Of a stretch of DNA of 24,961 bases, positions 630 to 21,624 are shown one piece after another. The notes under the pieces are model-generated. The model worked only from the letters and a program-made list of their open reading frames with translations. It was not told where the DNA came from and did no database searches. Numbering within the stretch: position 1 is the stretch's first letter; each line of letters starts with the position of its first letter. The position numbers were made by a program, and so were the translations under genes. Source of the stretch: a virus; the IMG/VR virus record IMGVR_UViG_3300043395_002398, positions 1-24,961 of that record; one strand, given 5' to 3'.

Positions 630-820
630 ACCGCCTCCTCCCATCGTGGAGCCTGCTCATAGCCCTCCACCGACGGGTTATGCCGCTCACACCGCAATAC
701 CAGCTCTGGCCCACCACAGGAGTGGGGGATCCGTATTACGCCGCCGTCGGCTAGGCGTCGGGCGATGTTTAGTGCGTCGCCGCGTTGGGCTGTGATCGTT
801 ATCTCAACCAACTCGCTCAT
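626..820 (-). CDS. Small hypothetical protein downstream of the integrase
   Basis: A 64-residue protein that starts with ATG at 820, overlapping the TGA of the tyrosine recombinase gene by 4 nt (ATGA). Its own TGA overlaps an 18-codon ORF in the same way. The N-terminus looks like a beta strand (ELVEITITA) followed by a helix (GDALNIARRLADGG). A pair of cysteines (IPHSCGG, VLRCERH) is present but does not form a clear zinc-ribbon pattern. I do not recognise the family. The 4-nt overlaps on both sides and its place in the early operon are the main evidence that it is translated. A role as a small accessory or excision factor is conceivable but nothing in the sequence shows it. Confidence 0.65.
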   Translation of the reverse strand: MSELVEITITAQRGDALNIARRLADGGVIRIPHSCGGPELVLRCERHNPSVEGYEQAPRWEEAV

Positions 821-1698
821 GCCGCAGCTCCAAACGACAATCGCTCCACAACACGCATAGCGTCCTCTCCCTCTAGCTCATCAAGGTACCCCTGTGTGGT
901 ACTAATTGCGGTATGGCCCATGAGTTGGCGTAACGCCTCCAGCTGCGCGGGATTCGTGCGCAAAAAATGCACCGCGAACGCAGCGCGCATCGAATGACAA
1001 TGCGCCCTCACCCCACACCGGTTCGCGACGCCTTTCACCAAGTCCCAAATGATCTTCGACTGGCGCTCGCGGTCGGTGGGAATACGAATCTTGTTTGGGA
1101 TCACCCACTGCTCCGGCCGCTGAGGGCCCTCGGCGATGATGTACGCCGTGAACACGCGCCGCAACTCATCGGCAATTGGCTTCGTGATCCGCTTATTGCC
1201 CTTCTCGGTAAATGTCAGCGTATGGCGCTTACCGTCGACGTGAGCCCAGCGCAACGCGCTCGCAGCTGAACGCCGCACACCGGTATATGCCAGCACGTTC
1301 AAACAAAGCTTCTCGGGCCACGTTTCCGCGGCTGTGAGCATCATCTGTACCTGCTCTGTGGTGATCCGCACACGTGGACGATCACGCAACGGCAATACCT
1401 TCGGGCGGCGTACCTTGTCCATCGGATTCGCATCAATCACGTCGTCCAAAACAAGTGTGCGAAAGAAGCTTCGTAGGATCGTGTGATCCAATGCAACGGT
1501 GCTCGCTGCGTGCTCCGTGAACGTCGCCAGGTATGAGCGGCAAGATGCTGGAGTTATCTCCTCAACGGGCGTGGTGGCGCCGACGTGTCGCTGAAACTTC
1601 GCAAGCTGGCGACTGTACCGCTCCACCGACCGCGGCGACCAATCCGGCGACGCCGTGATCTCCTGAACATATGTCCTGATTGCGTCCTCAAGGATCAT
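817..1698 (-). CDS. Tyrosine recombinase (phage integrase, XerC/D-like)
   Basis: A 293-residue site-specific recombinase of the tyrosine (lambda Int/Xer) family, expected to integrate or excise the phage or resolve dimers. Residues 1-95 form a SAM-like core-binding domain and about 110-285 the catalytic domain. Visible active-site residues are Arg142 (TGVRRSA), Lys166 (TEKGNKR), His235 and Arg238 (HSMR), His262 (LMGHT) and the nucleophile Tyr271 (GYLDEL). I chose the ATG at 1698 because AGGAG sits 7 nt upstream and it overlaps the previous stop (ATGA); an in-frame ATG at 1725 is less likely. The protein has no N-terminal arm-binding domain like that of lambda Int. It is sandwiched between coupled early genes, so there is no intergenic space beside it for a long attP, which is unusual for a phage integrase. 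Confidence 0.93.
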   Translation of the reverse strand: MILEDAIRTYVQEITASPDWSPRSVERYSRQLAKFQRHVGATTPVEEITPASCRSYLATFTEHAASTVALDHTILRSFFRTLVLDDVIDANPMDKVRRPKVLPLRDRPRVRITTEQVQMMLTAAETWPEKLCLNVLAYTGVRRSAASALRWAHVDGKRHTLTFTEKGNKRITKPIADELRRVFTAYIIAEGPQRPEQWVIPNKIRIPTDRERQSKIIWDLVKGVANRCGVRAHCHSMRAAFAVHFLRTNPAQLEALRQLMGHTAISTTQGYLDELEGEDAMRVVERLSFGAAA

Positions 1699-1907
1699 CG
1701 TTGTACTCCTGTTTGGATGCGCCACTCAGCGCCAGCAACATCCCGAATCAAACTCGACCCATCCACAAAATCCACCCGCCTACCAAACTGCACACTCGTT
1801 GCATTACGAGCCACAAACTCACCAAGCCGAGCAGCCGCAGCAGAAGCCCCCTCACCAACAACAACCGCCGCTAATAGCTCCAAATGCATGTCCGCGTGAC
1901 ACTTCAC
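1695..1907 (-). CDS. Small hypothetical protein upstream of the integrase
   Basis: A 70-residue protein with a GTG start at 1907 that overlaps the stop of the preceding zinc-ribbon gene (GTGA). Its 3' end contains the AGGAG ribosome binding site of the integrase and its TGA overlaps the integrase ATG, so the two are translationally coupled. The N-terminus has Cys and His (MKCHADMH), followed by an Ala/Gly-rich helical stretch and a FVARNA segment. No family is recognised. Its codons end mostly in G or T, unlike those in the first half of the dnaB gene two genes upstream. A regulator of the integrase is possible from position only. Confidence 0.6.
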   Translation of the reverse strand: MKCHADMHLELLAAVVVGEGASAAAARLGEFVARNATSVQFGRRVDFVDGSSLIRDVAGAEWRIQTGVQR

Positions 1908-4862: not shown

Positions 4863-5545
4863 GGCGCCGTTCCTTTCGCGCGCACGTGCGCGCGCGCGGG
4901 TACATCTAGGGTCGGGGCTGGGGGAAGGTCGGGCTCGGCGCTGCGCTCATCGTCCTGCACATCCCCGTAATCCGTTGGGGCACCGAAACGCTCTTGAAAC
5001 TTGGCGTGCTCTACGATCTTCTTGTACTGCGCGCGGAGCTGCTTCACGCCGTCCGGGGTGAGCCCTTTCACCACGTCGATGGGGTTGCCCTTCGCGTCCT
5101 TGCCTTTTCCCATCCAGTAGCCGTTGCTGTCCACTTTGAATGTTGGGAGGGCGTAGAGGAACGCTCCTACTCCGAACTCCACTGCTGCACGCTTGAGGGC
5201 GTCACTGACGGCGCTCTTGGCGTACTTGCCGTCCTGCCGGGTGGAGTCGAGCTGGCCCATACCTCGCCGCGTGACACCGAGGACCGTTAGTTCGCACGCT
5301 GTTGGGGCGTTGGCCTTGAGTCCTACCGGGTCGCCGGGTGTGCCGGCGAGGAAGCGGTAGTCCGCGGTCCATGCGGGATCCACGTCTGTGAGGCGTTCGT
5401 TCGCGAGGCGCGAGTCAATGTAGGGCAGGCATCGCACCGATCCGTCGCGTGCGGGGATTTTCTGGTCGGCTCGCCATTTGATGGCTTCGGGCGTGAAGGG
5501 AGCGCGGAGCTTTTTCACGCTAGCGGCGGTGAGTTCGCTTGTCAT
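4859..5545 (-). CDS. Rad52/22-family single-strand annealing recombinase
   Basis: A 228-residue member of the Rad52/22 family, which forms rings on single-stranded DNA and anneals complementary strands during phage recombination and replication. The conserved core is visible: a strand-rich first half with CLPYIDSRL and a CELTVLG segment, then the family hallmark helix KSAVSDALKRAAVEFGVGAFLY near residues 105-130. The C-terminal third is charged and proline-rich, as is usual for partner-binding tails. I chose ATG 5545 because it overlaps the upstream TGA (ATGA), rather than the frame-open position at 5557. The gene heads the DNA-metabolism part of the early operon. No cognate 5'-3' exonuclease is seen in the window. 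Confidence 0.88.
   Translation of the reverse strand: MTSELTAASVKKLRAPFTPEAIKWRADQKIPARDGSVRCLPYIDSRLANERLTDVDPAWTADYRFLAGTPGDPVGLKANAPTACELTVLGVTRRGMGQLDSTRQDGKYAKSAVSDALKRAAVEFGVGAFLYALPTFKVDSNGYWMGKGKDAKGNPIDVVKGLTPDGVKQLRAQYKKIVEHAKFQERFGAPTDYGDVQDDERSAEPDLPPAPTLDVPARAHVRAKGTAP
4877..4894. repeat. 18-bp perfect palindrome, alternating Py-Pu
   Basis: CGCGCGCACGTGCGCGCG is a perfect palindrome near the 3' end of the annealase gene. Strict pyrimidine-purine alternation continues to 4898, 22 bp in all, which favours Z-DNA or cruciform formation under negative supercoiling. It encodes a low-complexity tail (ARAHVRA), so selection on the DNA itself is uncertain. Confidence 0.6.
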
Positions 5546-5775
5546 ACGGCGTCCCATTCGCGGTACGCGGCGCTCACATAATCCACCGCATCGGGCCGCA
5601 CGCGCGGGTGTGCGGCGGGGTTCTCGGTGGCGTACTGCGCGTCACAGATCAGGTCAAGAAGCGCGCGGCCGAACAGCTTGAGTACTGGGTCGGTTTCGGA
5701 TAGTTCGCAGTAGCGGCGCGCTGATTCTTCGCAGTAGTCGAGCGCGCTCATGCGGGATTGGTGGCGGGTGCTCAT
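5542..5775 (-). CDS. Small hypothetical early protein
   Basis: A 77-residue protein with an ATG at 5775 that overlaps the upstream TAA by one base (TAATG); its TGA overlaps the annealase ATG. The middle is predicted to be helical (YCEESARRYCELSETDPVLKLFGRALLDLICDAQYA), with two cysteines in the first half and one more in the hydrophobic LLDLICDA stretch. There is no signal peptide or clear membrane segment. The family is not recognised. Its place immediately after the Cro-like regulator and a one-TM protein is typical of small host-takeover genes of temperate phages, but no function can be assigned from sequence. Confidence 0.7.
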   Translation of the reverse strand: MSTRHQSRMSALDYCEESARRYCELSETDPVLKLFGRALLDLICDAQYATENPAAHPRVRPDAVDYVSAAYREWDAV

Positions 5776-5936
5776 TAGTGTGTTACCGCCCAGAGAAAGA
5801 GGGTGCATGTGGCGAGGAAGATTGCCCAGCCGGTGGTTTGCGTTGGCGCGCAACCCTTGTGTGTGGGGAGTAGGGTTGCGCGCCACGCATCGGGGTGTCG
5901 CGGTGTTTCCTGTGTGGGCTTGTGGGGCGGCCTCAT
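5775..5936 (-). CDS. Small one-TM membrane protein
   Basis: A 53-residue ORF. Its ATG at 5936 overlaps the stop of the Cro-like gene (ATGA) and its TAA overlaps the next ATG (TAATG), so both junctions are coupled. The N-terminal 35 residues are polar and Pro/Thr/His-rich; residues about 36-51 (TGWAIFLATCTLFLWAV) form a single C-terminal hydrophobic helix. This would place the N-terminus in the cytoplasm as a tail-anchored protein. No family is recognised. The perfect operon fit on both sides is the main argument that it is real. Confidence 0.6.
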   Translation of the reverse strand: MRPPHKPTQETPRHPDAWRATLLPTHKGCAPTQTTGWAIFLATCTLFLWAVTH

Positions 5937-6175
5937 GCGGCGCCTTCTTGTCTGGGTGGGGTTGTGGTGAAGCGTTCTGGGGGTACGCTGCCCATCAAAA
6001 ATTCGGGGCTCAAGCCGAGCCCAACAAGCGCCTGAAGATTCGCAATCGAGGGGCTGGACTTGCCGGATTCCCACAAAACCACCTGTTGGCGCGTGACTCC
6101 TACCTCTCGCGCGAACTGGTCCTGGGTTTGTGTTCGGCACGCTCGAAGCGCCCTGATTTCCTGTGCGATTGACAT
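5933..6175 (-). CDS. Cro-like HTH transcriptional regulator
   Basis: An 80-residue protein with one HTH_3/XRE domain: EIRALRACRTQTQDQFAREVG, then VTRQQVVLWESGKSSPSIANL as turn and recognition helix, covering residues 5-60. The frame is open further upstream, but I chose ATG 6175 because the domain begins right after it and the upstream residues are Cys/Val-rich and unlike an HTH protein. It is the first gene of the leftward early operon and diverges from a plus-strand HTH gene, the layout of a lambda-type cI/cro switch. It would bind operators between the two genes. The C-terminal 20 residues are Pro/Arg-rich and probably disordered. Confidence 0.85.
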   Translation of the reverse strand: MSIAQEIRALRACRTQTQDQFAREVGVTRQQVVLWESGKSSPSIANLQALVGLGLSPEFLMGSVPPERFTTTPPRQEGAA

Positions 6176-6197
6176 CTGGCATCTCGTGTTCGGTGAA

Positions 6198-6215
6198 TGT
6201 ATGACGCACAATACA
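6198..6215. promoter_or_regulatory. Operator-like inverted repeat TGTAT-N8-ATACA
   Basis: A perfect 5-bp inverted repeat with an 8-bp spacer lies in the gap between the divergent HTH genes and covers the -10 of the candidate leftward promoter. An 8-bp direct repeat ATGACGCA (6201-6208 and 6224-6231) overlaps it and brackets the promoter spacer. HTH_3 dimers typically bind half-sites of this size. The assignment is from position and symmetry only. Confidence 0.45.
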
Positions 6216-6236
6216 CACCGAGGATGACGCATGCAA
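6208..6236 (-). promoter_or_regulatory. Candidate leftward early promoter
   Basis: On the minus strand TTGCAT (6231-6236), a 17-bp spacer and TATTGT (6208-6213, preceded by TGTG) resemble a sigma70-type promoter: 3 of 6 matches at -35 and 4 of 6 at -10. The predicted start near 6201 gives a short leader before the Cro-like ATG at 6175. It drives the early operon if real. Confidence 0.45.
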
Positions 6237-6587
6237 CATACTGCCGACGTAATGTCCGCAAAATGCGGAAAAACGTACAGTGATCGCGTGCCAAGCGCAT
6301 GGACATATGGAACCAAGCTCCGCGAGATGCGAGAGCGCAGCGAACTAACGCAGAACGAAGCAGCGTCCCTAGTCGGGGTCCAGTTGGGAACGTACGGCGG
6401 GTGGGAGCGCGGGACCCAAAACCCGACCCTTGAAAACCTTCGCGCGGTGGCCGAGGCGTTTAGAATTGATCCGCGCGAGCTGGGCTATGAACCACCAAAG
6501 GGATGGGAGCTTGTCCCGTCCGACTGGATACGCAAAGAATTCACAGCCCTCAACGAGAAACTAGACAAGCTCATGGAACGAACGTGA
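6231..6587 (+). CDS. HTH repressor, CI-like lysogeny regulator candidate
   Basis: A protein of up to 118 residues with an XRE/HTH_3 domain at about 26-80 (YGTKLREMRERSELTQNEAASLVGV, turn, TYGGWERGTQNPTLENLRAVAEAF) and a helical C-terminus (RKEFTALNEKLDKLME) that could dimerise. There is no LexA/CI-type peptidase domain, so it would not be cleaved by RecA. The ATG at 6231 has GAGG 7 nt upstream. ATG 6252 and GTG 6288 are alternatives; 6288 gives the most typical HTH N-terminus and would put a palindrome just upstream. It is one of two coupled genes on the plus strand in an otherwise leftward block, diverging from the Cro-like gene, so it is the likely lysogeny repressor. Confidence 0.85.
   Translation: MQHTADVMSAKCGKTYSDRVPSAWTYGTKLREMRERSELTQNEAASLVGVQLGTYGGWERGTQNPTLENLRAVAEAFRIDPRELGYEPPKGWELVPSDWIRKEFTALNEKLDKLMERT
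6255..6269. promoter_or_regulatory. Operator-like inverted repeat TCCGCA-AAA-TGCGGA
   Basis: A perfect 6-bp inverted repeat around AAA. It is inside the frame if the repressor starts at 6231 or 6252 but upstream of it if the GTG at 6288 is used. It is a plausible autoregulatory operator; its half-sites differ from those of the repeat at 6198-6215, which would fit two different HTH proteins. Confidence 0.4.
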
Positions 6588-6835
6588 CGGACAACAACAC
6601 CGCGCTTCTCGCGAGCATCAACCGCCGACTTGGGTGGGTCCTTGCGCTTCTGCTTCTCTCGGCCCTTATTGGGATATCAGCAGGGATCTACACGACCATC
6701 GAAGCTGAGCAAGACACGCCGGCCAAAAAGAAGTCTGCTCCCAAGCCCGACGCCTCGCCGTACGACGAGTGCCTCGCTGACCCTGACACCACTGTCCAGC
6801 AGTGCCAGGACGAATACCCCGAGTTGGCGCCCTAG
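6584..6835 (+). CDS. One-TM protein cotranscribed with the repressor
   Basis: An 83-residue protein starting with GTG at 6584, overlapping the repressor stop by 4 nt (GTGA). Residues 1-15 are polar with RR at 14-15; about 17-40 (WVLALLLLSALIGISAGIYTTI) form one membrane helix. The rest is a lysine/proline-rich linker (TPAKKKSAPKPD) and an acidic tail with a cysteine pair (YDECLADPDTTVQQCQDE), probably outside the membrane and possibly disulphide-bonded. Expression with a lysogeny repressor suggests a prophage-expressed gene, such as superinfection exclusion or surface modification, but no family is recognised. Its stop is directly adjacent to the stop of the convergent minus-strand gene. Confidence 0.75.
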   Translation: MTDNNTALLASINRRLGWVLALLLLSALIGISAGIYTTIEAEQDTPAKKKSAPKPDASPYDECLADPDTTVQQCQDEYPELAP

Positions 6836-7045
6836 TTAGGCTACGTCCTGGCCGTAGTGGTCAACGCCCAAAATCAGTGTCTTCAGCTTACGCGCTGCCT
6901 GCGCTATCCCCATCGCATGCCGCTCAATCAGCTCAAGCTGCGCGACCGCCCGATCCTGGCAACTCAGCTTCGCGAACAGCTCGCCCACCAACTCATTCAG
7001 CTCAGAGTGCAGCACAACATCACCTACCCTGCCGAAATTTTCCAC
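6836..7045 (-). CDS. Small helical hypothetical protein at the end of the late operon
   Basis: A 69-residue frame with a GTG start at 7045 and no strong ribosome binding site. The sequence is convincingly protein-like and mostly helical (SELNELVGELFAKLSCQDRAVAQLELIERHAMGIAQAARKLKTLI), perhaps a short coiled coil. It lies 81 bp after the metallophosphoesterase, on the same strand, and its TAA at 6836 abuts the stop of the plus-strand membrane gene. No family is recognised. The 81-bp gap upstream makes it less certain than the coupled genes. Confidence 0.5.
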   Translation of the reverse strand: MENFGRVGDVVLHSELNELVGELFAKLSCQDRAVAQLELIERHAMGIAQAARKLKTLILGVDHYGQDVA

Positions 7046-7091
7046 ACACCGAGTACAATCGCCGGCCGGGCTCGCCGTGTTTCACTGGATT

Positions 7092-7111
7092 CTTGCAGTG
7101 TGCTTGCAGTG
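7092..7111. repeat. Direct repeat CTTGCAGTG x2
   Basis: CTTGCAGTG occurs at 7092-7100 and 7103-7111, an 11-bp period, in the 81-bp gap between two minus-strand genes. A CACTG at 7083-7087 is the inverse of the repeat's CAGTG. It could be a regulator binding site or a recombination site; nothing decides between them. Confidence 0.5.
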
Positions 7112-7126
7112 GGGCCTTCAGGTTCC

Positions 7127-8020
7127 CTAGGAATACAGCATTGGGGTGTGCATGCGCCCGCCGATAAGTAGGCTGTACCCGTTCTGCATCTTCGGTAGAT
7201 CATTCGTGTACTTATGCAAGTACGCCATACGGGACTGGTCCGCGATCATCCCACCGTCCACAATCATCTTGCCATTCGCAGCGAACCCCTGCGCCAAGTG
7301 GTGACGATGCGCGCCGTAGATGTGCTGCATCCACCGCTTCGCGAGCTTGTCTGGGTAAGCAAGCGGCAAGCGGCTATAGCTGCGCGTATGACACAACCGC
7401 CACTCACCCTCCTCAGTGTCCACAATCACATAATCCCGAGCGGTTACCTTGATGCGGTCGAGCTTCTCGGGCGGTAGGTCGCACAGCAGCATACGGATGC
7501 TTTTCTCGAACGACACGCGCGCTTTCTGTGCGTGATGCCGGTCGTGATTCCCGAACGTAACGATGATCTCTTTCACTACGTCCAGTGCTGTTTCTACCGC
7601 GTAGTGCAGGTGCTGCATCTCGGGGCCCATCCCCGCGCCAGCTTGTTTGTCTTCATGCTGCGCAAGGGCGTCCTGGTTGGTCATATCCCCGACAACTACC
7701 ATCCGCTCCAGGCCGTGCCTGTACGTGTCCTCAAGGTAGCGGTGAAACGTGTCGTAGTGAATGAGTGGCGCGTGCCAATCGTTCGATACGCTGAAGTCAC
7801 CTTCAAGGCGCAACTCCGCGTCCTCTATCGGAACTAGCGGTGGGGGTGGCGGGGCACGAAACGCGAACGCCGTGTGCGAGTGGCTGCCCTTGATTTGGTA
7901 CTTGTTCCCCCAGTGGCGCACTGTTGGCTCGGGGGTTTTGTTTGCGCGCGCCGCTCCGCTCAGACTACCGTGCTTCTGGACTTCGGCTCGAAGGGTTTCC
8001 TCGTCCCGATACCACGCCAC
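7127..8020 (-). CDS. Calcineurin-like metallophosphoesterase with N-terminal HTH
   Basis: A 297-residue protein. Residues about 5-45 look like a homeodomain-like HTH (LRAEVQKHGSLSGAARANKTPEPTVRHW). About 70-297 form a metallophosphoesterase with the metal-binding series DWH at 81-83, GD at 111-112, GNHD at 157-160, His211 in LCHTRSY and GAHRH at 237-240, so both metal sites look intact. The family cleaves phosphodiesters, from nucleases to nucleotide phosphatases; the HTH suggests that DNA is the target. The start is GTG 8020 with AGGGG 5 nt upstream. It lies after the lysis genes at the end of the late operon. The substrate cannot be told from sequence. Confidence 0.85.
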   Translation of the reverse strand: MAWYRDEETLRAEVQKHGSLSGAARANKTPEPTVRHWGNKYQIKGSHSHTAFAFRAPPPPPLVPIEDAELRLEGDFSVSNDWHAPLIHYDTFHRYLEDTYRHGLERMVVVGDMTNQDALAQHEDKQAGAGMGPEMQHLHYAVETALDVVKEIIVTFGNHDRHHAQKARVSFEKSIRMLLCDLPPEKLDRIKVTARDYVIVDTEEGEWRLCHTRSYSRLPLAYPDKLAKRWMQHIYGAHRHHLAQGFAANGKMIVDGGMIADQSRMAYLHKYTNDLPKMQNGYSLLIGGRMHTPMLYS

Positions 8021-8028
8021 ACAGACCC

Positions 8029-8253
8029 CTAACTGTTGTTGGACTTGGCCTCTAGCACATCTAGGCGGTCTTCCACACGATCAAATCGTCGATCAATCGC
8101 GTCACGCAGCGTCTTACCACCGTTTGGTTTCAGCTCGAAATGAACACGCCCGATACTGGCATCAAGACGCCGGCCGAACACAACGACCGCCAGCAGCACA
8201 ACCGCAGCGAGCAGCACACCCACCAACAGGACTGTGGAGTCCACACTACTCAC
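8029..8253 (-). CDS. Small membrane-anchored protein, lysis-region accessory
   Basis: A 74-residue protein with a GTG start at 8253, a few bases after the endolysin stop. Residues about 7-28 (TVLLVGVLLAAVVLLAVVVFG) are one membrane helix, followed by a charged stretch ending in a helix rich in Arg, Asp and Leu (IDRRFDRVEDRLDVLEAKS) that could form a coiled coil. Small one-TM proteins with this outline are frequent next to holin and endolysin genes in actinophages. It may be a second holin, a holin regulator or an antiholin. The family is not recognised with certainty. Confidence 0.7.
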   Translation of the reverse strand: MSSVDSTVLLVGVLLAAVVLLAVVVFGRRLDASIGRVHFELKPNGGKTLRDAIDRRFDRVEDRLDVLEAKSNNS

Positions 8254-8256
8254 CTG

Positions 8257-8733
8257 TCAGCCCGTCCACCGCGCGGGGCCGTCTGGGCGATGATCAACGT
8301 GAACAAACGCAGCGTACGTTCCGATACCGCCGCGACGAAACGCGCGGACCTTCTCAGCAAACGACGCGAGCACCGGGGGTGGTAGTTTGTATCGCCCCCC
8401 GTTCTTATAGATCACCACCGCGTTGATATCCGTAGCGCGACTCTGAGTGTGCTGACTGTTCGTTGCAGCGCCGGGAAGGGTGGCGTTATATTCGGGCGTG
8501 CGGTACCAGCTCGTCACGACAATGGATACGCGCGCCACGCGGCCCGCGCCGCCATAGCCGCGCTTGATCCTGCGGCGTAATCGGTTTAGGTAGATCGCTT
8601 GGCGTACGAGTCGACGCCGCTCAGTGCGTGTCGATGGTAGGGAGCGCTTGCCGTCCTTGCACCACACTTCGCTCCAGCGGAATCCGCGACGCGGCCCCTT
8701 GGTTCCGAACGCGCCGTACCGGCGCCGGATCAT
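8257..8733 (-). CDS. Peptidase M15 (YcbK/VanY-type) endolysin
   Basis: A 158-residue zinc peptidase of the M15 DD-peptidase family, expected to cut peptidoglycan peptide bridges at lysis. The zinc site is visible: SQHTQSRATD gives His95 and Asp102, and FVHVDHR gives His145, with the usual SWYRTPEYN segment before and RGGIGTYAAFVHVD around the last ligand. The first 60 residues are very rich in Arg and Lys and probably bind the anionic cell wall; no separate wall-binding domain is present. The ATG at 8733 overlaps the holin stop (ATGA). It could instead be a virion-associated lysin, but the neighbours favour lysis. Confidence 0.85.
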   Translation of the reverse strand: MIRRRYGAFGTKGPRRGFRWSEVWCKDGKRSLPSTRTERRRLVRQAIYLNRLRRRIKRGYGGAGRVARVSIVVTSWYRTPEYNATLPGAATNSQHTQSRATDINAVVIYKNGGRYKLPPPVLASFAEKVRAFRRGGIGTYAAFVHVDHRPDGPARWTG

Positions 8734-8909
8734 GCGACCCTCTTCAGGTACGCAGCCAGGCTACTCAAGAGTACCGTGAGCGCGCTCGCAACCTCAGGCG
8801 GAACACCTACACCGGCTTGCCCGAGCGACCACACGAGCACGACACTCGCCGCGCCCGCAGCGCCACCGGCTTTGACTTTTGGGTGCGGTGCCCTGGGGGA
8901 TTCGCTCAT
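8730..8909 (-). CDS. Holin-like small membrane protein
   Basis: A 59-residue protein if started at ATG 8909; in-frame starts at 8915 and 8921 are also possible and none has a strong ribosome binding site. Two hydrophobic segments, about 15-32 (AGGAAGAASVVLVWSLG) and 37-54 (VPPEVASALTVLLSSLAAYL), are joined by a short turn and end in a basic KRVA tail. The PPEVA...L...AAYLK pattern matches, from memory, a common actinophage holin family. It overlaps the M15 endolysin by 4 nt, the standard holin-endolysin order. Holins form membrane lesions that release or activate the endolysin. Confidence 0.75.
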   Translation of the reverse strand: MSESPRAPHPKVKAGGAAGAASVVLVWSLGQAGVGVPPEVASALTVLLSSLAAYLKRVA

Positions 8910-8942
8910 GCACATGAGCACACCCGCGCGAGGGGTAACTAC

Positions 8943-9758: not shown

Positions 9759-10789
9759 GCTTCGTTCAGATCCAGGTGAATGGTTTCGTTATCGTTCTCA
9801 TCCAAATCACAGTGCAGTTGCACGATGCGGAACTTTCCATAGATGTCTGCCGAGGGAATGCTGAGTGTCACGGTGTCTCCGACCCAGTACGAGCCCCAAG
9901 GGAGTGATAGGTGGTCGCGCGAAAGGCGTACGCGCGGGATTGCCTGCGGGTGGTCGCGCTCTACGATTGCGTTATCGACCCATTCTTGGAGGTTCGTGGT
10001 TTCGCTTATCGAGTCGGAAACCTGGACGCTAATCTCGCGTCGCCCGTACTGCGCCTGGGCGGTTGCGTCCGTGGCGGTAAATACTGCTGTGGTTTCCGCG
10101 CCAACAATCCGAAAATCAGTACCAATCTGTCCGGGGCTGGTATCCCATACGAACTGGTACGTGTCGACGTTCACGCCATACTGGAGGGTAAGTAGGCCGC
10201 TCTTGTCCTCGCCGCGCTGCGGGTAGTAGCAGCGAAACCGGCGGCCAGCGTCGATCCCGAAATCAAACCCGCTAGACCGTTCAGACAGCGCTATAATTGC
10301 ATCGAGAATGTCGGTGTCCTGCTCAAAGGTAACGCTCTTTGTGGGGTCGGTTGTGGGCGCCCCGAAATCCGTGATCCCGTAGGCGCTGGCACCTGTTCGC
10401 GCCTGGAAGGTGTTTATCAGTCCCCAAGCTATTCGGCTTTGTGCCGTTGTCGCATATGACGTTGCCGCGTACGCTGTGCCAAGCTGGAGGTAAGAGAGGA
10501 TCCCTAGCCACCCAAGTTCGATGCGCTCTCCGCTCTCATCCCCTGCTGGCGCGACGTTCGTGAGCTGGAATACGCTCTCGATTGGTGTTCCGTCACGGTA
10601 GATGACAAGCTCAGAATCGCCACCCTTGCGAATGATTTGGCGTGCTGGGCTGGCGTCGTCTGGACGGATCGTTCCGCGTGCTTCGGGGGGGCGGTTGATC
10701 GGGATACTGAAACCGCGACTCGTGAGGTTTTCAAGCTCGCCATAGGGCGTACCGTTTCGCGCCTGTATGACCCACTGGTACTGTGCCAT
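9755..10789 (-). CDS. Gp37-like (ReqiPepy6-type) tail/baseplate protein
   Basis: A 344-residue protein. I chose ATG 10789, which overlaps the stop of the distal tail gene by one base (TGATG); the open frame upstream overlaps that gene. The sequence is beta-rich and begins with YQWVIQARNGTPYGELENLTS, followed by FSIPINRPPEARGTIRP, as in siphovirus Gp37-type proteins that form the baseplate hub. Later parts include a helical insert (QSRIAWGLINTFQARTGAS) and a C-terminal ligand-like strand region (WGSYWVGDTVTLSIPS, KFRIVQLHCDLDENDNETI). It would sit under the distal tail protein as the hub. It lacks a recognisable lytic domain. The family call is from memory of the pattern and is moderately firm. 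Confidence 0.75.
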   Translation of the reverse strand: MAQYQWVIQARNGTPYGELENLTSRGFSIPINRPPEARGTIRPDDASPARQIIRKGGDSELVIYRDGTPIESVFQLTNVAPAGDESGERIELGWLGILSYLQLGTAYAATSYATTAQSRIAWGLINTFQARTGASAYGITDFGAPTTDPTKSVTFEQDTDILDAIIALSERSSGFDFGIDAGRRFRCYYPQRGEDKSGLLTLQYGVNVDTYQFVWDTSPGQIGTDFRIVGAETTAVFTATDATAQAQYGRREISVQVSDSISETTNLQEWVDNAIVERDHPQAIPRVRLSRDHLSLPWGSYWVGDTVTLSIPSADIYGKFRIVQLHCDLDENDNETIHLDLNEA

Positions 10790-12993
10790 CAGAGGCGCGC
10801 CTCGCGGAAGCTGTACGCCAGGTCCTGAAGGCTGCCCTCGTCGATAGTTGTGGTACCGACTGGTATGTTGAACCATTCCGTCATCGCGGGTTCGATGACG
10901 TAGCCGCCGTAGTTCTCAAATGTTGCGCTGGCGGCGCTGGCGGCGTACAGGTCTGCGACCTGTTGCTTTGTGAGCGCCTGCGCGTACAGTGCGACGTTAT
11001 CTATCTTACCGTCGATGTAGGCGTTACCGCCCCCGTCAGTGACGCGCCCAATTGTGAAGGCGCTGCTAGCTGTGACCGGGCTGAAGACCGCTCCGGCGTT
11101 CGTGAACGAGATCGCTACCTGCAACTCGCCGTCGATGTACAGGCGTGGGCCGTCCTCGCCCATAACCGCGACAATGTGGTACCACGTTGCGGCATCGAGC
11201 GCCGTGAACGCTTGCAGCGAACCCTCTGTTGTACCCGAGCCAGTCCACCACTGCAACACTAGCGAGTTGCCAGAACGCCGCAGTGACCAGCCCGTGTATG
11301 CGCCGCCATTGTTGCGGAACGATCCAGCTATCGCGCCAGCGCCCGAGGCGTCATCGAATAGGCACCACGCCTCGATACTGAACACCGCGGGATTCAACGC
11401 CGCAGCGAACGGCACGGTCACATACTCAGACGAGGCGTCGTCAAAGCTGGTAGAAACAATGCTTGAAGCGTGCCCGCTCTGGTTTAGTGTCGGGGTGTTT
11501 GTGTACGTCCCGTCGTACGATGATGTGCCTTCGCAATTGTCGGCTGTGGTGCCGCTCGTTTCGTTGAGGCGCCAATACGCGATTGGATCGAACAGCTTCA
11601 GGCGTCCGTTGTGGTACGTTGTTGTCCAGTCCGCGGTGCGGTCCCCGGTTCGTACTACAACCACATCGCTACCGGATAGGCGGTCGAGAATGAATCCGAT
11701 CTGGCCGCCCGTGTCGGCTGCGATCCGATCAATCTCCACGCTGGGCAAGCCCGATTGCATTGTGCATGTGAGGGTCACTGGCGCCTCACACTGCCCGCCG
11801 TTACTGATTGCAACGCCAGCGCCGCTACCCGACTCTGGATAGTCGTGGTAGATGCGCGGATCAGACGCGCGAAGCACAACCGTATACGGGCAGGCGCCAA
11901 GCCCCACATGATCACCGAAACGAACTGGATCAATCACGCGACAAGTGGAATGCTCGTACCCGGTTGTGTCGTTATTGGCGACCTCCCCGGACCCGCGCCG
12001 ATACAGCTGCAAAATCTGGTCCGTGGTAAGGGGCGTGTTGAACAGCAGAACGTCATCAATCTTGCCGTTGAACGGTGCAACGATCGCTTCGTCGTACGCG
12101 CCGATAAAGAAATCGTCGGTACTGTTTGCCACGAACGTATCGGTGCTGGTACCTACAGACGCGCCGTTGATATAGAACGTCAGAGTGGTGCCGTCATACT
12201 TCAACGCAAGGTGAAACCACTCCCCGACAGTGGCGGCGGTGCTGCTAACGACCGCAGCGGACTGGCCGCCAGCGTCGTAGAGCGTTGCAGACCATACGTT
12301 TGCGGCGGTGGCGTAGAGCCTCCACCCTGCTGTGGAGCCTGCGTTTCTGGCGCCACACACGCCGCGTGATGTGCCAGCGCCACCGTCAACGCACGCCCAC
12401 GCCGACACCGTAAACGTCGACGGGTTCAGCGCCGCCGCGTACGCCACCTGCACATAGTCGCCCGTTCCATCAAAATCAATGCACGTATCCTCATCCGCGG
12501 TTATTGCCCCCTCGCTTCCGAGCGTGGGGTTGCCGGCAATGGTTCCCGTGTATGAGCCAGTTGCGGACAGCGCTGACGTTCCCGAACTCTCTCCGAGTCT
12601 CCAATACGCAACGGGCGAAAGATCGTTCGCGTACTCGTAGAAAGAAGACTCAACCGAGCTGGTTGGATCGGGAACCTTTAGCAGCCCCTCGGTGGAGTTG
12701 TGCGCGAAGATCGCGGCGAGATCGCGTTTCCTGCTTTGCACGTCCTCCCATGACGCTCCGTACACCATCCCATTGATGGTGATGGTGCGTCCTCCGGCAA
12801 GGAGCGCGTCAGCGCGCTCCCCATCGCGCCCTGCGAGTTGTTCGCGAACGTCGCGCAGTTCGTATCCACCCTCCCAGCCTTCTATGCTGTCGATGCTTAT
12901 GCCGACGTTTTTTCGGAAGAGGCTGATGGTGTTTACGGCCGCGCCGTCGAAATACACTACGTCTCTGTCTGCGCGGGGCTGGTAGGCGGGCAT
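10789..12993 (-). CDS. Distal tail protein with two inserted LamG domains
   Basis: A 734-residue protein right after the tape measure. Residues 1-110 resemble the N-terminal belt domain of distal tail (Dit) proteins (DVVYFDGAAVNTISLF, GRTITINGMVYG, SRKRDLAAIF). LamG/concanavalin-like domains lie at about 125-333 (PVAYWRL, YVQVAYAAALNPSTFTVSAW, YDGTTLTFYINGASVG, GKIDDVLLFNTPLTTDQI) and 467-685 (PIAYWRL, YVTVPFAAALNPAVFSIEAW, LYIDGELQVAIS, GKIDNVALYAQALTKQQV). They are clearly homologous to each other. Between and after them Dit-type sequence resumes (PYTVVLRASDPRIYHD; the C-terminus EGSLQDLAYSFREARL), so both domains look inserted in loops. They likely bind host-surface sugars. The ATG follows the tape-measure TAA directly. 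Most Dit proteins are 250-500 residues, so this is large. Confidence 0.82.
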   Translation of the reverse strand: MPAYQPRADRDVVYFDGAAVNTISLFRKNVGISIDSIEGWEGGYELRDVREQLAGRDGERADALLAGGRTITINGMVYGASWEDVQSRKRDLAAIFAHNSTEGLLKVPDPTSSVESSFYEYANDLSPVAYWRLGESSGTSALSATGSYTGTIAGNPTLGSEGAITADEDTCIDFDGTGDYVQVAYAAALNPSTFTVSAWACVDGGAGTSRGVCGARNAGSTAGWRLYATAANVWSATLYDAGGQSAAVVSSTAATVGEWFHLALKYDGTTLTFYINGASVGTSTDTFVANSTDDFFIGAYDEAIVAPFNGKIDDVLLFNTPLTTDQILQLYRRGSGEVANNDTTGYEHSTCRVIDPVRFGDHVGLGACPYTVVLRASDPRIYHDYPESGSGAGVAISNGGQCEAPVTLTCTMQSGLPSVEIDRIAADTGGQIGFILDRLSGSDVVVVRTGDRTADWTTTYHNGRLKLFDPIAYWRLNETSGTTADNCEGTSSYDGTYTNTPTLNQSGHASSIVSTSFDDASSEYVTVPFAAALNPAVFSIEAWCLFDDASGAGAIAGSFRNNGGAYTGWSLRRSGNSLVLQWWTGSGTTEGSLQAFTALDAATWYHIVAVMGEDGPRLYIDGELQVAISFTNAGAVFSPVTASSAFTIGRVTDGGGNAYIDGKIDNVALYAQALTKQQVADLYAASAASATFENYGGYVIEPAMTEWFNIPVGTTTIDEGSLQDLAYSFREARL

Positions 12994-15570: not shown

Positions 15571-16124
15571 TCACCCACCAAGGATGGCCGCGACCTCACT
15601 GCTTGAAAGGCCGGGAACACTTGGCTCCTGCTCACCGAGCCCCATGATGTGTTTCCCTGCGCTAAACAGAACCTCGCGCTCCCAAATAGGTAGCGCGGCG
15701 ACCGAAGCGCGGTCCATGCCGAAAGCGTGCCGGAAGATGACAAGAGCCTGCACATCCTCCGGCGTTAGCCTTCCCCCGCCGTGGCCTCACCCATGTACCA
15801 CTCAAAGATAAAGTCAGACGCACCACGCAACGCCTTCGCGCCAAGCGCCTTGTCGCCGTGCTTCTCCTCATCTGACAGAGCAACGAGCAGCGCAGCGATC
15901 CCAGACCCGTTCTCGCAGGCGGCCTCGCAAAGCCCCCCAACAGCCAGCGCGAAATCCTTCGTTGTGATCTCCGACTGGCTCTCCACGTCGTGAAGCTTCT
16001 TGATTGCTTCACCAATCGCAGCTTCGCGCGAATCCGTGAGGTCGCCAAGCAACCACTCGCCATGCTCGCCAAGACACAGCTTCGGCTTTTCCATCGCAAA
16101 TGGGTCGTACGTCCCTGCATTCAC
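15571..16124 (-). CDS. Tail assembly chaperone, -1 frameshift fusion product
   Basis: The long form of the tail chaperone, about 184 residues. Reading starts at the GTG at 16124 and slips back one base at GGGGGAA (15771-15777), continuing as GRLTPEDVQALVIFRHAFGM and ending at 15571. The second part has no good start of its own at the junction but is protein-like from the slip onward, including ALPIWEREVLFSAG and LSSSEVAAILGG. Siphophages as diverse as lambda (G/GT) make two overlapping chaperones in this way between major tail and tape measure genes, and this pair sits in exactly that place. The frame relation is -1, the usual direction. The frequency of slipping is unknown. Confidence 0.75.
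15765..16124 (-). CDS. Tail assembly chaperone, short form (lambda gpG-like role)
   Basis: A 119-residue acidic, helical protein, starting at GTG 16124 with GGGAGG 6 nt upstream. It begins NAGTYDPFAMEKPKLCLGEHGEWLL, then helices through AIGEAIKKLHDVESQSEITT and CEAACENGSGIAALLVALSDEEK, ending GEATAGEG at TAA 15765. The composition and place between major tail and tape measure genes fit the unshifted tail chaperone, which coats the tape measure during assembly and is absent from the finished virion. There is no close sequence signature; the call rests on synteny and the frameshift partner. Confidence 0.8.
   Translation of the reverse strand: MNAGTYDPFAMEKPKLCLGEHGEWLLGDLTDSREAAIGEAIKKLHDVESQSEITTKDFALAVGGLCEAACENGSGIAALLVALSDEEKHGDKALGAKALRGASDFIFEWYMGEATAGEG
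15771..15777 (-). promoter_or_regulatory. -1 ribosomal frameshift site GGGGGAA
   Basis: On the minus strand GGGGGAA spans 15771-15777, with the zero-frame codons GGG GAA GGC TAA. Slipping back one base gives GGG GGA and opens the downstream frame. The zero-frame stop lies two codons after the heptamer. G-rich slippery sites of this type are used for tail chaperones of actinophages. Confidence 0.7.
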
Positions 16125-16997: not shown

Positions 16998-17837
16998 TTA
17001 GGTAGTTACGGCGCGGAGAGTGTCCTCATCCACCGCCACGCGCTCGTGCGGGTTGTAGCGACGCTCCTCAGGAACACGCTCCCACTCACCCGCATTACGA
17101 ATGTCGTAATACTCCCGCTTCACCCGCCGCCGATGCGCGGTACGCCACGGATCGCGATGCTCAAACAAAACCGGGAACTCCGGCACCAACACACCAGCCG
17201 CGCGCCCCACACTCGCACCAGCGATATCAGGACGTAGATTCCACACCACACCATCCACGTCCCGCCCATGATACGAGTAGTGATTGTCCTGCACCCACAT
17301 CTCCGGCATCAACCGCCAAAACCGGCTACACCACTGCTCACCCCGCGCGGGGATATCCATATTGCGATACAACCCCGGCGTATGAGGCGTATTGTTCTTC
17401 CCCTCGGTGGTGGCAGGGTCGATGCTCTCGATCATTTTCGCGCCACCAACATGGTCACGCTCAGCGTCACCGGTAGCGAGCCACGCTTTCACATCGAACT
17501 CGTTAGCGATCACCTCGTCCGCGTCAATGACCGTCACCCAGTCACTCATGGGTTCACCAATCGCGCCCGCAAGACGGAAACACAACGAGCGCTTCTCACG
17601 CTCCGCTAACAACTCGTCTGGACGATGCAGTGTCAACCCGATGCCCGCAGCGTCCGCAGCGAGTTGCACCGCTTCCGACTGTTCCACACCACTCCACCGC
17701 GTGCCCCCCTCAACACCAGGATACGCGCCGTCCACAGCCACCAAATGATCCACACCGATCCGGGTCAGACTATGAATACAGGCCATTAGCCACGTAGGTG
17801 ACTCGTCCCACCACGACACAATTGCGATCAGCTTCAT
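16998..17837 (-). CDS. Glycosyltransferase (GT-A fold, family 2-like)
   Basis: A 279-residue glycosyltransferase, expected to move a sugar from a nucleotide sugar onto an acceptor. Residues 1-45 form the first Rossmann-like strand pair (KLIAIVSWWDESPTWLMACIHSL, HLVAVDGAYPG). The metal-binding DxD is in WVTVIDADEVI near 101-111. Further acceptor-domain parts include RFWRLMPEMWVQDNHYSYHG and the basic HRRRVKREYYDIRNAGEW. There is no signal peptide or membrane helix, so it is cytoplasmic. Its ATG overlaps the oxidoreductase stop (ATGA). The last codons lie in a GGTAGTTAC repeat also found beyond the other end of the cassette. The target could be a virion protein, host teichoic acid or surface glycan; sequence does not decide. 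Confidence 0.85.
   Translation of the reverse strand: MKLIAIVSWWDESPTWLMACIHSLTRIGVDHLVAVDGAYPGVEGGTRWSGVEQSEAVQLAADAAGIGLTLHRPDELLAEREKRSLCFRLAGAIGEPMSDWVTVIDADEVIANEFDVKAWLATGDAERDHVGGAKMIESIDPATTEGKNNTPHTPGLYRNMDIPARGEQWCSRFWRLMPEMWVQDNHYSYHGRDVDGVVWNLRPDIAGASVGRAAGVLVPEFPVLFEHRDPWRTAHRRRVKREYYDIRNAGEWERVPEERRYNPHERVAVDEDTLRAVTT
17001..17009 (+). repeat. Cassette-flanking direct repeat GGTAGTTAC, left copy
   Basis: The GGTAGTTAC copy at the 3' end of the glycosyltransferase gene, followed by GGCGCG. The other copy is at 19130-19138. Counting the next six bases (GGCGCG against TACGCG), 13 of 15 positions agree. A third copy lies inverted at 8935-8943. Confidence 0.6.
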
Positions 17838-18595
17838 GCTGCCCTCCCAGCCAAATCAAGCGCCTCATCGGCCGCGTCCTTAGCGAGCCCAAGATCAACC
17901 GTTTCGCCACGCGCCCACGCACGCAACTCCACACCCAACGGGTCGGGCGTGCCCGCAAACGCCACGCGCGCCTTGCCCCACCCAACCACGCGCCGCGCCT
18001 CATCAAGCGTTACCGCAGGGCCATGCTCAAACTCCACCCGCGTCCACCGCTCAGGCATCACACCAGGCGCGGTGTACTCCGCACGATGCTCCCCCACGAT
18101 CCGCGAATCCACCCACATACGGAACGCAATATCATGCACCGCTAAATCAACCCACGGCCCCCACCCACTCGGCCGGCTACTCGAACGATACGACTCCCAC
18201 CGCGCGACCCGGCCCGCGCGCACAATCTCCGCAAACAAGCGCCCCTCCGGCGCGAACAATGTCTGATGCCCCACGGTATCCACATACTGGGGATCCTCCA
18301 CCAGCGGTTTCTCCACGCGAATGTTGTAGACGCCGAGCGCGCGCAACTCCTCACACACCACTTGCCGCTCATCGCCGGGTGGGATAGCAACAATCGCCCA
18401 ATCCGTCCACCGCGCCGCGGCCTCAAGATTGTGCGCGCCATACCAGCCACACCCCGAAGCGTGCGCAAGCGCCTCCGCACGAGTGTGGTTCTGATCCACA
18501 ACCCCCGCAAGCATAAACGGCACATCCGGCTTCACCAGCCGCGCGGCTAGCTTCGCGCCCCACGACCCCGCACCAACCAGCACCACGCGATTCAC
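17834..18595 (-). CDS. Gfo/Idh/MocA-family oxidoreductase
   Basis: A 253-residue NAD(P)-dependent oxidoreductase. The N-terminal Rossmann domain starts RVVLVGAGSWGAKLAARLV (GxGxxG at about 8-13). WAIVAIPPGDERQVVCEELRALG and the family hallmark IRVEKPLVED follow near 90-105. The C-terminal part has the expected substrate domain (WVDLAVHDIAFRMW, with the conserved HD). At 253 residues it is shorter than the usual 320-380. I chose GTG 18595, overlapping the acyltransferase stop (GTGA), because the Rossmann strand begins right after it. Family members oxidise or epimerise sugars such as UDP-sugars and inositol; together with an acyltransferase and a glycosyltransferase this suggests a modified surface sugar. 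Confidence 0.85.
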   Translation of the reverse strand: MNRVVLVGAGSWGAKLAARLVKPDVPFMLAGVVDQNHTRAEALAHASGCGWYGAHNLEAAARWTDWAIVAIPPGDERQVVCEELRALGVYNIRVEKPLVEDPQYVDTVGHQTLFAPEGRLFAEIVRAGRVARWESYRSSSRPSGWGPWVDLAVHDIAFRMWVDSRIVGEHRAEYTAPGVMPERWTRVEFEHGPAVTLDEARRVVGWGKARVAFAGTPDPLGVELRAWARGETVDLGLAKDAADEALDLAGRAA

Positions 18596-19074
18596 ACGCC
18601 ACTCCACGTATGCAAACGCCGCGCCGGATTCCCCACCCACGTTTCACCAGGCGGAATATCCTTCGTAACAACCGCGCCCGCACCGATCCGCGCGTCCGAA
18701 CCCACCGTAACATGAGGCAGGATCACGGCGCCCAGCCCGACCTTCACGCGATCCCCGAGCGTTACAAGCCCACCAACCACACAGTTCGGCGCAAGCTCAC
18801 AATCCTCCCCAACATGCGCGTCATGGCCCACATGGGAACCAGCCATCAGCAGCGAGCGCGCCCCGATCAGCGTTTCCCGCTCACACCCAGCCTGCACCCT
18901 CGCGAACTCGCGCACAACACAATCAGCACCAACCACAGCCGGAAACCGCGACTCACGATCACGCCACTCCCCCGGCAACCCAATCGCAGCACGCCTACTA
19001 ACATCCGCACTCGCCGCGACCTCAAAAAGGGCTTCGTCTACGTCACGAATCGTAAGGGGCGCTTCTGCGCTCAT
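18592..19074 (-). CDS. Left-handed beta-helix (hexapeptide) acyltransferase
   Basis: A 160-residue acyltransferase of the hexapeptide-repeat family (WbpD/PglD/LpxA-like). The repeats are visible from about residue 45: ADCVVREFARVQAGCERETLIGARSLLMAGSHVGHDAHVGEDCELAPNCVVGG, then VKVGLGAVILPHVTVGSDARIGAGAVVTKDIPPGETWVGNPARRL, a textbook C-terminal end. The conserved His in SHVGHDAHVG is the likely catalytic base. It would N- or O-acetylate a sugar using acetyl-CoA. I chose ATG 19074 because GGAAGG is 7 nt upstream; the frame is open to 19119. It is the first gene of the sugar cassette, and its TGA overlaps the oxidoreductase GTG. Confidence 0.88.
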   Translation of the reverse strand: MSAEAPLTIRDVDEALFEVAASADVSRRAAIGLPGEWRDRESRFPAVVGADCVVREFARVQAGCERETLIGARSLLMAGSHVGHDAHVGEDCELAPNCVVGGLVTLGDRVKVGLGAVILPHVTVGSDARIGAGAVVTKDIPPGETWVGNPARRLHTWSGV

Positions 19075-19129
19075 CCGTACACCTTCCGGCAGGGAACACT
19101 CTTCACCCCCGGACACCACCCCCCCACCG

Positions 19130-20891: not shown

Positions 20892-20988
20892 CCCGCACCA
20901 AAAACGTCCGACAAGGATGCGAAAATAAGAGGGCCCGGCGGTGCGCAAACACCCCGAGCCCAGGCCACCGCTAACCAGGAGCGACGAC

Positions 20989-21624
20989 ATGCAGAACAAT
21001 ACCAGCAAGACCTGCCGCGGGTGTGGAATTACGAAGCCGCTTGACCGGTACCACCGACATCCGAAGATGCGAGACGGCCGCCTAAACTACTGCGTCGAAT
21101 GTATCCGGGAAAAAGATCGTGCTCGCCGTGCAAAGAAATCCGAGGACCCGGCCTTCCGTGAACGGGAACGAGAACGATCCCGCGTGTACCGCGAGAAGAA
21201 CCCCGAGCGCAGGGCTCAAACCGTACGTGTGTACCGGGAGCAGAACCGGGAAGCCTGCATTGCCAGGACACGCGCATGGCAAGAGGCAAATCGCGAGCAC
21301 GTAAACCAAACAGTCCGCAAGCGCCGCTCCGAGAACCCCGAACAATCACGCGCAAACTGGAAGCGCTGGAATCGCGTGCGTAAGGCCCGCATTCGCGGTG
21401 CCGAAATCCGCGAGGCAGTAGACCCCGCCATAGTATGGGCGCGCGACAACGGAAAGTGCCACATCTGTGGTAAGCGCGCAGATCCCGATGATTGGCACCT
21501 AGATCACCTAGTCCCCGTGTCGCTCGGCGGCGATCACAGTTATGCCAACGTCGCGGTATCGCATCCGCTATGCAACATGCGCAAGGGCAACCGCAGCGCT
21601 AACGATCAGCTCCGCCTCATGTAA
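20989..21624 (+). CDS. HNH endonuclease with N-terminal zinc finger (homing-type insertion)
   Basis: A 211-residue HNH nuclease on the opposite strand from the surrounding head genes. I chose ATG 20989 because AGGAG lies 7 nt upstream; the frame is open to 20941. The N-terminal zinc finger uses CRGC (9-12) and CVEC (35-38). Residues 55-130 hold about four degenerate, Arg-rich helical repeats (YREKNPERR, YREQNREAC, WQEANREHV, RSENPEQSR), likely for DNA contacts. The HNH core follows: CHIC at 157-160, LDHLVP with Asp172-His173, Asn187, then HPLCNMRKGN. It ends at a strong bidirectional terminator. The layout suggests a mobile free-standing homing endonuclease in the late operon. Confidence 0.9.
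   Translation: MQNNTSKTCRGCGITKPLDRYHRHPKMRDGRLNYCVECIREKDRARRAKKSEDPAFRERERERSRVYREKNPERRAQTVRVYREQNREACIARTRAWQEANREHVNQTVRKRRSENPEQSRANWKRWNRVRKARIRGAEIREAVDPAIVWARDNGKCHICGKRADPDDWHLDHLVPVSLGGDHSYANVAVSHPLCNMRKGNRSANDQLRLM

Follow-up and report, generated by a model that had tools for sequence, protein, structure and literature searches.

A likely lysogeny switch with a single-pass membrane protein gene behind the presumed repressor in a siphovirus-like phage

Gene content of the locus

At the locus described here, two HTH genes diverge from a short gap, and the rightward gene is followed directly by a gene for a small protein with a single transmembrane (TM) segment. The locus lies in a virus record of 24,961 bases (the whole stretch that was analyzed, referred to here as the window), which by Pfam and PHROGs scans codes for a tailed, siphovirus-like phage. 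The features on which the argument draws are as follows.

6231-6587, plus strand: P0001, an XRE/HTH_3 protein of 118 aa and likely lysogeny repressor (HTH_3, 8.3e-14)
6584-6835, plus strand: P0002, a single-TM protein of 83 aa and candidate exclusion protein (start at GTG 6584, otherwise ATG 6503)
5933-6175, minus strand: P0003, an HTH_3 protein of 80 aa whose gene heads the leftward set (HTH_3, 4.6e-9)
6176-6230, no strand: control gap common to the two divergent genes, bounded by the starts adopted in this analysis and presumed to hold operators and promoters
6201-6208 and 6224-6231, no strand: direct repeat ATGACGCA (count reached by 19% of shuffles)
6255-6269, no strand: palindrome TCCGCAAAATGCGGA with 6-bp arms (255 of 1,000 shuffles hold as many)
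5775-5936, minus strand: possible one-TM ORF of 53 aa (KD 1.47, borderline), overlapping P0003 by 4 nt and the next gene by 1 nt
817-1725, minus strand: XerD-like tyrosine recombinase/integrase (Phage_integrase, 2.8e-20; PHROG integrase, 4.8e-39)

The window holds 37 listed ORFs, 36 of which (all but ORF 15571-15753) were scanned against Pfam or PHROGs. Pfam returned a portal (PF04860, 6.5e-78), an S78 prohead protease (2.5e-28), and a Phage_capsid match (1e-27), and the scans also recovered a tape measure protein, an M15 endolysin, a holin, a DnaB helicase, and a Rad52/Erf annealing protein. The integrase matches XerD itself at 6.2e-30, under the XerD cut-off. With the exception of an HNH gene (20941-21624) and the pair at 6231-6835, all listed ORFs occupy the leftward strand, including those for the integrase, DnaB, Rad52/Erf, portal, protease, capsid, tape measure, endolysin, and holin. 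Another virus record, L003, shares 13,276 identical bases with the window and extends it by 2,344 bases on the right; this extension (L003 1-2344) encodes a large terminase of 532 aa (TerL_ATPase, 4.9e-14) upstream of the portal. L003 was the only near-identical record; its fetched part ends at window position 11,686, and even with the other 2,917 bases of its contig it would stop at about 8.8 kb of the window. Capsid relatives in the phage collection came from 58 records, all less than 60% identical; one is a Pseudomonas phage and the other 57 are Mycobacterium phages. The host of the window phage is probably actinobacterial.

The HTH gene pair and its control gap

The initial annotation described two divergent HTH genes sharing a short gap, and this description holds: HTH_3 was detected in both products at the values listed above, and the gap measures ∼55 bp. 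Its statement that the repressor has no cleavable CI domain is borne out as well, as P0001 has no peptidase, CI, or S24 match in Pfam, PHROGs, or NCBIfam. The C-terminal S24/LexA-like peptidase domain of the lambda CI family is absent, all such matches being to the HTH, and longer PHROGs repressor families align to P0001 over the HTH part only. The nearest named relatives, found via the HTH, include RstR, C.AhdI, and P22 C2, small HTH regulators that resemble P0001 in the HTH fold, with similarity confined to that part. The best solved relative is the restriction-modification controller C.AhdI (1e-7), and the NCBIfam RstR model gave 42.7 bits against a cut-off of 80 bits. PADLOC control-protein models align over the HTH stretch only (1.3e-9), and antitoxin-type matches are weak, far under cut-off, and again limited to the HTH. 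Phage records matching P0001 at an E-value of ≤0.01 numbered 110, none of them across 80% of the query. The AlphaFold2 (AF2) model of P0001 is poor (pLDDT 44), with a C-terminal helix (residues 97 to 116) predicted at low confidence. Several apparent relatives were discarded. Record L002, among the viral contigs, is a false friend that has one peptide in common with P0001, inside an unrelated 520-aa frame, and the lone genome-contig match, from a Synergistaceae MAG, spans the HTH only. For P0003, PDB matches to plant receptor kinases were attributed to chance, and no HTH chain reached an E-value of 0.01.

The codon score of P0001 was equalled by 1 of 182 wrong-frame controls, while that of P0003 was poor, being equalled by 11.5% of controls. 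The ATG of P0001 at 6231 has GAGGA 6 nt upstream. In this long reading, the first 25 codons score −0.144 nats/codon, a value reached by 27% of controls; as this stretch is not coding-like, a start at 6252 or at GTG 6288 is possible in place of 6231. A leaderless start at GTG 6288 is an attractive candidate: a possible −10 element, TACAGT, lies at 6276-6281 (letters confirmed), with the palindrome at 6255-6269 just upstream. With the start at 6231, this palindrome would fall inside P0001.

Within and beside the gap, the initial annotation had placed a leftward promoter (6208-6236), an inverted repeat over its −10, a direct repeat in two copies, and a second palindrome. The letters of the repeats are present, with TGTATGACGCACAATACA at 6198-6215, ATGACGCA at 6201 and 6224, and TCCGCAAAATGCGGA at 6255-6269, but their numbers are not above chance. 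Positions 6155-6300 contain one 8-nt direct repeat, three inverted repeats with 5-bp arms (14% of shuffles), and one with 6-bp arms, the shuffle values for the first and last being those listed above; across the window, 6-bp-arm palindromes with loops of 0 to 8 occur at 3.2 per kb. The 18-mer at 6198-6215 has no second window copy at ≤3 mismatches, and loose motif copies elsewhere in the window were not enriched, whether counted as 23 versus 16.5 expected (7 of 100 shuffles had as many) or as 26 versus 19.4 expected (11 of 100). The proposed leftward promoter, TTGCAT-17-TATTGT, agrees with the consensus at only 3 + 4 of 12 positions (7/12). Promoters at 9/12 were not found in 5400-7300 (shuffle mean, 0.6), and the three promoter-like sites at 8/12 in 6155-6260 are all rightward, at least three being reached by 197 of 1,000 shuffles (mean of 1.3 in a separate set of shuffles). 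Actinobacterial promoters often lack a good −35, so the 7/12 score neither proves nor excludes the site. In all, the promoter and operator details of the gap are not statistically supported. An apparent leftward terminator inside P0003 (6006-6022) was likewise discarded, being unremarkable (z of −1.4), with 3 terminator-like sites versus 1.7 expected.

In an integrase-bearing phage, an HTH gene that opposes the lytic genes occupies the usual position of a lysogeny repressor. Because, the lone HNH gene aside, only the plus pair opposes the rest of the window, P0001 is likely the repressor and P0003 likely the early lytic (Cro-type) regulator. The compact lysogeny switch first proposed for this locus is also the reading that we find best, given the tyrosine recombinase, the divergent HTH genes, and the plus pair as the only operon opposite the rest. 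P0001 would then be a non-cleavable XRE repressor of a temperate siphovirus-like phage, keeping P0003 and the leftward genes behind it repressed and controlling its own gene from the gap common to both. As a regulatory switch, this arrangement adds nothing unusual.

The membrane gene P0002

Calculated with the phage's own codon usage, the codon score of P0002 is 0.164 nats/codon, versus a maximum of 0.125 in 182 wrong-frame open stretches; on the antisense strand of the region, one frame scores 0.068. This score is specific rather than sensitive, as P0003 (11.5%), the HNH gene (16%), and the holin (6%) fall inside the control range. P0002 is coding-like and is very probably a real gene. Its stop codon lies directly ahead of a convergent ORF at 6836, so the plus operon holds no third gene.

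The initial annotation called the product a one-TM protein with an extracytoplasmic cysteine pair. The single hydrophobic segment (KD 2.22 from residue 17) and the pair, Cys63 and Cys74, are present, while the membrane side assigned to the pair is a guess. These are the only cysteines of the protein and sit well behind the hydrophobic segment, giving a layout of TM segment, Pro/Lys-rich spacer, and C-terminal Cys63/Cys74 hairpin. The structural model consists of a long helix (residues 2 to 40) and short helices or a hairpin at 59 to 64 and 71 to 77 that carry Cys63 and Cys74, with a pLDDT of 83 to 84 for residues 61 to 80 and a pTM of 0.29. A Cys63-Cys74 disulfide may form. Arg14 and Arg15 precede the helix and three lysines (KKK) follow it, so the positive-inside rule does not decide the topology.

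A 4-nt overlap (GTGA) between P0001 and P0002 had also been reported, and it stands if P0002 starts at GTG 6584, where the ribosome site is weak. The only other in-frame start in 6503-6700, ATG 6503, would yield a product of 110 aa and an overlap of 85 nt. With the starts that we chose, same-strand junctions in the window show a 4-nt overlap in 12 of 32 cases and a 1-nt overlap in 3 of 32; of the 12, eight take the ORF at its full length, from the longest start, and four, the P0002 junction included, rest on an inner start. As 4-nt overlaps are so frequent in this phage, the short P0001/P0002 overlap carries little weight. On the opposite strand, the possible one-TM ORF at 5775-5936, which was absent from the initial annotation, lies behind the minus HTH gene and mirrors the plus-strand arrangement; its codon score is equalled by 21% of wrong-frame controls, its coding status is uncertain, and it has no family match.

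Relatives of P0002 were sought by sequence and by structure. Six 8-residue patterns, a scan that finds close relatives, gave 17 pattern matches in viral contigs and 271 in genome contigs, with no relative in either set. A tblastn search of phages and plasmids at an E-value of 10 returned no match, and P0002 was found in 0 of 35 capsid-related records, an empty answer that is uninformative without a known positive. Among solved structures, the best E-value was 0.67, and a search of viral structures with the P0002 model gave five matches at an E-value of ≤10 and none at ≤0.001, which is weak evidence at a pTM of 0.29. Exclusion and defence families in Pfam, PHROGs, NCBIfam, and PADLOC gave no match; the best sub-threshold matches were phrog_11828 (0.0085, a family of unknown function, over 19 spacer residues) and OAD_gamma (0.11, under cut-off). 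The pattern scan also returned no viral relatives for the neighboring Rad52/Erf and metallophosphoesterase genes, and sister phages spanning the switch region were therefore not found. Within the sensitivity of these searches, P0002 thus has no relative in any of the collections queried.

Operon context and candidate function of P0002

Genes on repressor operons are a productive source of prophage-encoded phage resistance. In the Gordonia phage CarolAnn, genes 43 and 44 are described as cotranscribed with the repressor gene 45 and as defending against cluster CZ phages, and the authors compare genes 43 to 45 to lambda cI-rexA-rexB (PMC6426606). The window resembles CarolAnn in that a membrane protein gene of a probably actinobacterial phage appears, from gene order, to be cotranscribed with the repressor; it differs in having one gene and one TM segment, with no detected homology, as compared with a pair of defence genes and a four-TM protein in CarolAnn (PMC6426606). 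Lambda cI-rexA-rexB likewise is a repressor operon with a membrane gene expressed in lysogens, as P0002 would be, but the window has no RexA-like partner, a cleavable CI domain is missing from P0001, and RexB and CarolAnn gp43 are both reported to have four TM segments (PMC6426606, PMC7542560). The combination of a RexA-like cytoplasmic partner with a four-TM protein is therefore absent from this operon, in which P0002 has one segment and no third gene follows. Another parallel is Ltp of Streptococcus phage TP-J34, an exclusion protein of the lysogeny module built from anchor, spacer, and domain; the same source notes that many exclusion proteins sit at the outer face of the membrane via an N-terminal helix or lipid (PMC3952083). 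P0002 shares with Ltp a membrane anchor, a spacer, a small further domain, and a location in or beside the lysogeny module. Ltp, however, is a lipoprotein with a repeat domain (PMC3952083), whereas P0002 has a TM anchor and a cysteine pair, no lipid-anchor cysteine, no repeat exclusion domain, and no sequence or family match. Butters gp30/gp31 is a further case (PMC7542560), as is Fc02, whose exclusion genes occupy both strands upstream of the repressor gene (PMC9936078).

The same position was surveyed in capsid-related phages. Of 239 capsid relatives in IMG/VR, 80 were kept. P0001 was queried against 35 of these records and matched in seven at an E-value of ≤0.01 with 26 to 32% identity. An HTH_3 search of 25 of the 35 records plus the window (26 in all) placed a divergent HTH pair, in positions that we read ourselves, in 8 of 26, window included; in G011 and G012 one HTH partner is under the family cut-off, and the HTH proteins of G029 and G034 resemble each other closely, so that these two records are not independent. 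In the other seven records, the downstream stretch (−40 nt to +150 nt of the stop) was read for 10 of 14 HTH genes, and a membrane-type ORF immediately behind was seen for 1 of these 10, in G021. There, the gene for a 147-aa HTH_3 protein (2.9e-9) is flanked by the gene of its divergent HTH partner on one side and a serine recombinase gene (Resolvase, 2.3e-32) on the other, and overlaps by 4 nt a 214-aa membrane-type ORF that is unrelated to P0002. The product of this ORF combines a hydrophobic segment (KD 2.00) with a long charged tail and has no Pfam family. In G035, a 90-aa ORF whose product has a single strong hydrophobic segment lies 129 nt behind the minus HTH gene, on the side away from the integrase. 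Two ORFs were set aside, one in G012 (KD 1.64) with a weak HTH_17 match (0.00028, under cut-off) and one in G011 at +93 (KD 1.94) that was judged by eye to be off-frame. The slot behind the repressor is thus taken by unrelated membrane genes occasionally rather than regularly. In one capsid-related phage (L124, 1554-2638), an HTH gene and an overlapping membrane-type ORF have third-position GC values of 0.67 and 0.64, with neighboring genes at 0.85 to 0.94, as if the two had been acquired together.

Judging from gene order and orientation, P0002 is likely co-expressed with the repressor. It would be translated from the repressor mRNA, probably in a coupled manner, and so would be present in lysogens. 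With its N-terminal helix as the membrane anchor and a short helical hairpin beyond the Pro/Lys spacer, it would most likely act in superinfection exclusion, blocking genome entry or protecting the lysogen, and its layout and position make an exclusion or defence role plausible. CarolAnn gp43/gp44 and Ltp provide precedents (PMC6426606, PMC3952083), and in G021 an unrelated membrane-type ORF overlaps an HTH_3 gene in the same manner. Against this stand the missing exclusion or defence family match, the one TM segment in comparison with four in RexB and CarolAnn gp43, the 1-in-10 frequency among HTH genes of the other seven records, an overlap that is commonplace and start-dependent, and a promoter and operators that are not above chance. 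We tentatively favor a lysogeny switch with P0002 as a lysogen-expressed exclusion protein, and would put the whole of this explanation at somewhat under an even chance.

The same switch could instead carry P0002 as an accessory gene (moron), for example one for envelope modification, or as a membrane toxin held in check via the repressor operon. The lack of a homologue or family match for P0002, the unrelated ORF in the same slot of G021, and the antitoxin-type HTH matches of P0001 are all compatible with such a role; those matches are nevertheless far under cut-off and limited to the HTH, and P0002 contains no enzyme or toxin domain, so that we hold this unlikely while still giving it appreciable weight. 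A reversal of the HTH roles, or a pair that is not a lysogeny switch at all (the minus gene a repressor, the plus gene an early regulator or controller-type protein), would suit the C.AhdI and PADLOC control-protein matches of P0001 (1e-7 and 1.3e-9), the generic HTH character of both proteins, and a partial record for which lysogeny is deduced. It is distinctly unlikely in view of the integrase and of a plus pair that opposes the lytic genes, and the scans of 36 of 37 ORFs (Pfam/PHROGs) returned no restriction-modification enzyme, the nuclease matches being of phosphoesterase/repair type and otherwise only HNH.

Lysis modules often include small membrane proteins, and genes for an endolysin, a holin, and another TM protein lie at 8029-8921. 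An antiholin-like role of P0002 in lysis or lytic growth, with a plus operon that is not lysogeny-specific, is very unlikely all the same: P0002 is on the opposite strand, is separated from the lysis genes by ∼1.2 kb and two ORFs, and has no holin match. The initial annotation also offered the membrane protein as a signal input that controls the repressor, for which we found nothing in support. P0002 would in that case tether P0001 to the membrane or relay an outside (redox) signal via the cysteine pair; the two genes are adjacent and probably coupled, and the C-terminal helix of P0001 (97 to 116, in a low-confidence model) could bind a partner. We give this scant credence, since such overlaps are routine in this phage, only ∼15 residues of P0002 would be cytoplasmic if the N terminus is inside and GTG is the start, and a full-text search, of which titles were considered, yielded no paper title on such repressor-membrane control. 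A further long shot is that P0002 founds a new one-TM exclusion/sensor family, with a membrane hairpin, possibly disulfide-closed, that protects the lysogen at its surface and, by way of coupled synthesis, also tunes repressor amount or location. Finally, a chance ORF would explain why no homologue turned up in the collections searched, the GTG start with its weak ribosome site, and an antisense frame scoring 0.068, yet it is hardly credible for a frame whose codon score exceeds 182 of 182 controls, which encodes a TM segment and fits flush from the P0001 stop to the convergent ORF at 6836.

Other genes of the window bear separate mention. Between the lysis genes and the switch lies a metallophosphoesterase/DNA-repair exonuclease-like gene (7127-8020, minus strand; PHROG, 9.2e-6). 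The lone HNH endonuclease gene (20941-21624, plus strand; PF01844, 2.3e-9), downstream of the capsid gene and opposite to its neighbors, looks like a homing-type insertion. A tail-region protein (10789-12993, minus strand) with two concanavalin/laminin-G-type domain matches (PF13385, 3.4e-49) is likely a carbohydrate-binding tail part. Between the head-completion and tail genes, 16998-19119 (minus strand) encodes a GFO_IDH_MocA oxidoreductase (1.7e-8), a hexapeptide transferase (2.3e-20), and a 279-aa ORF that is glycosyltransferase-like by eye and has no Pfam match, possibly a sugar-modifying cassette inside the structural operon.
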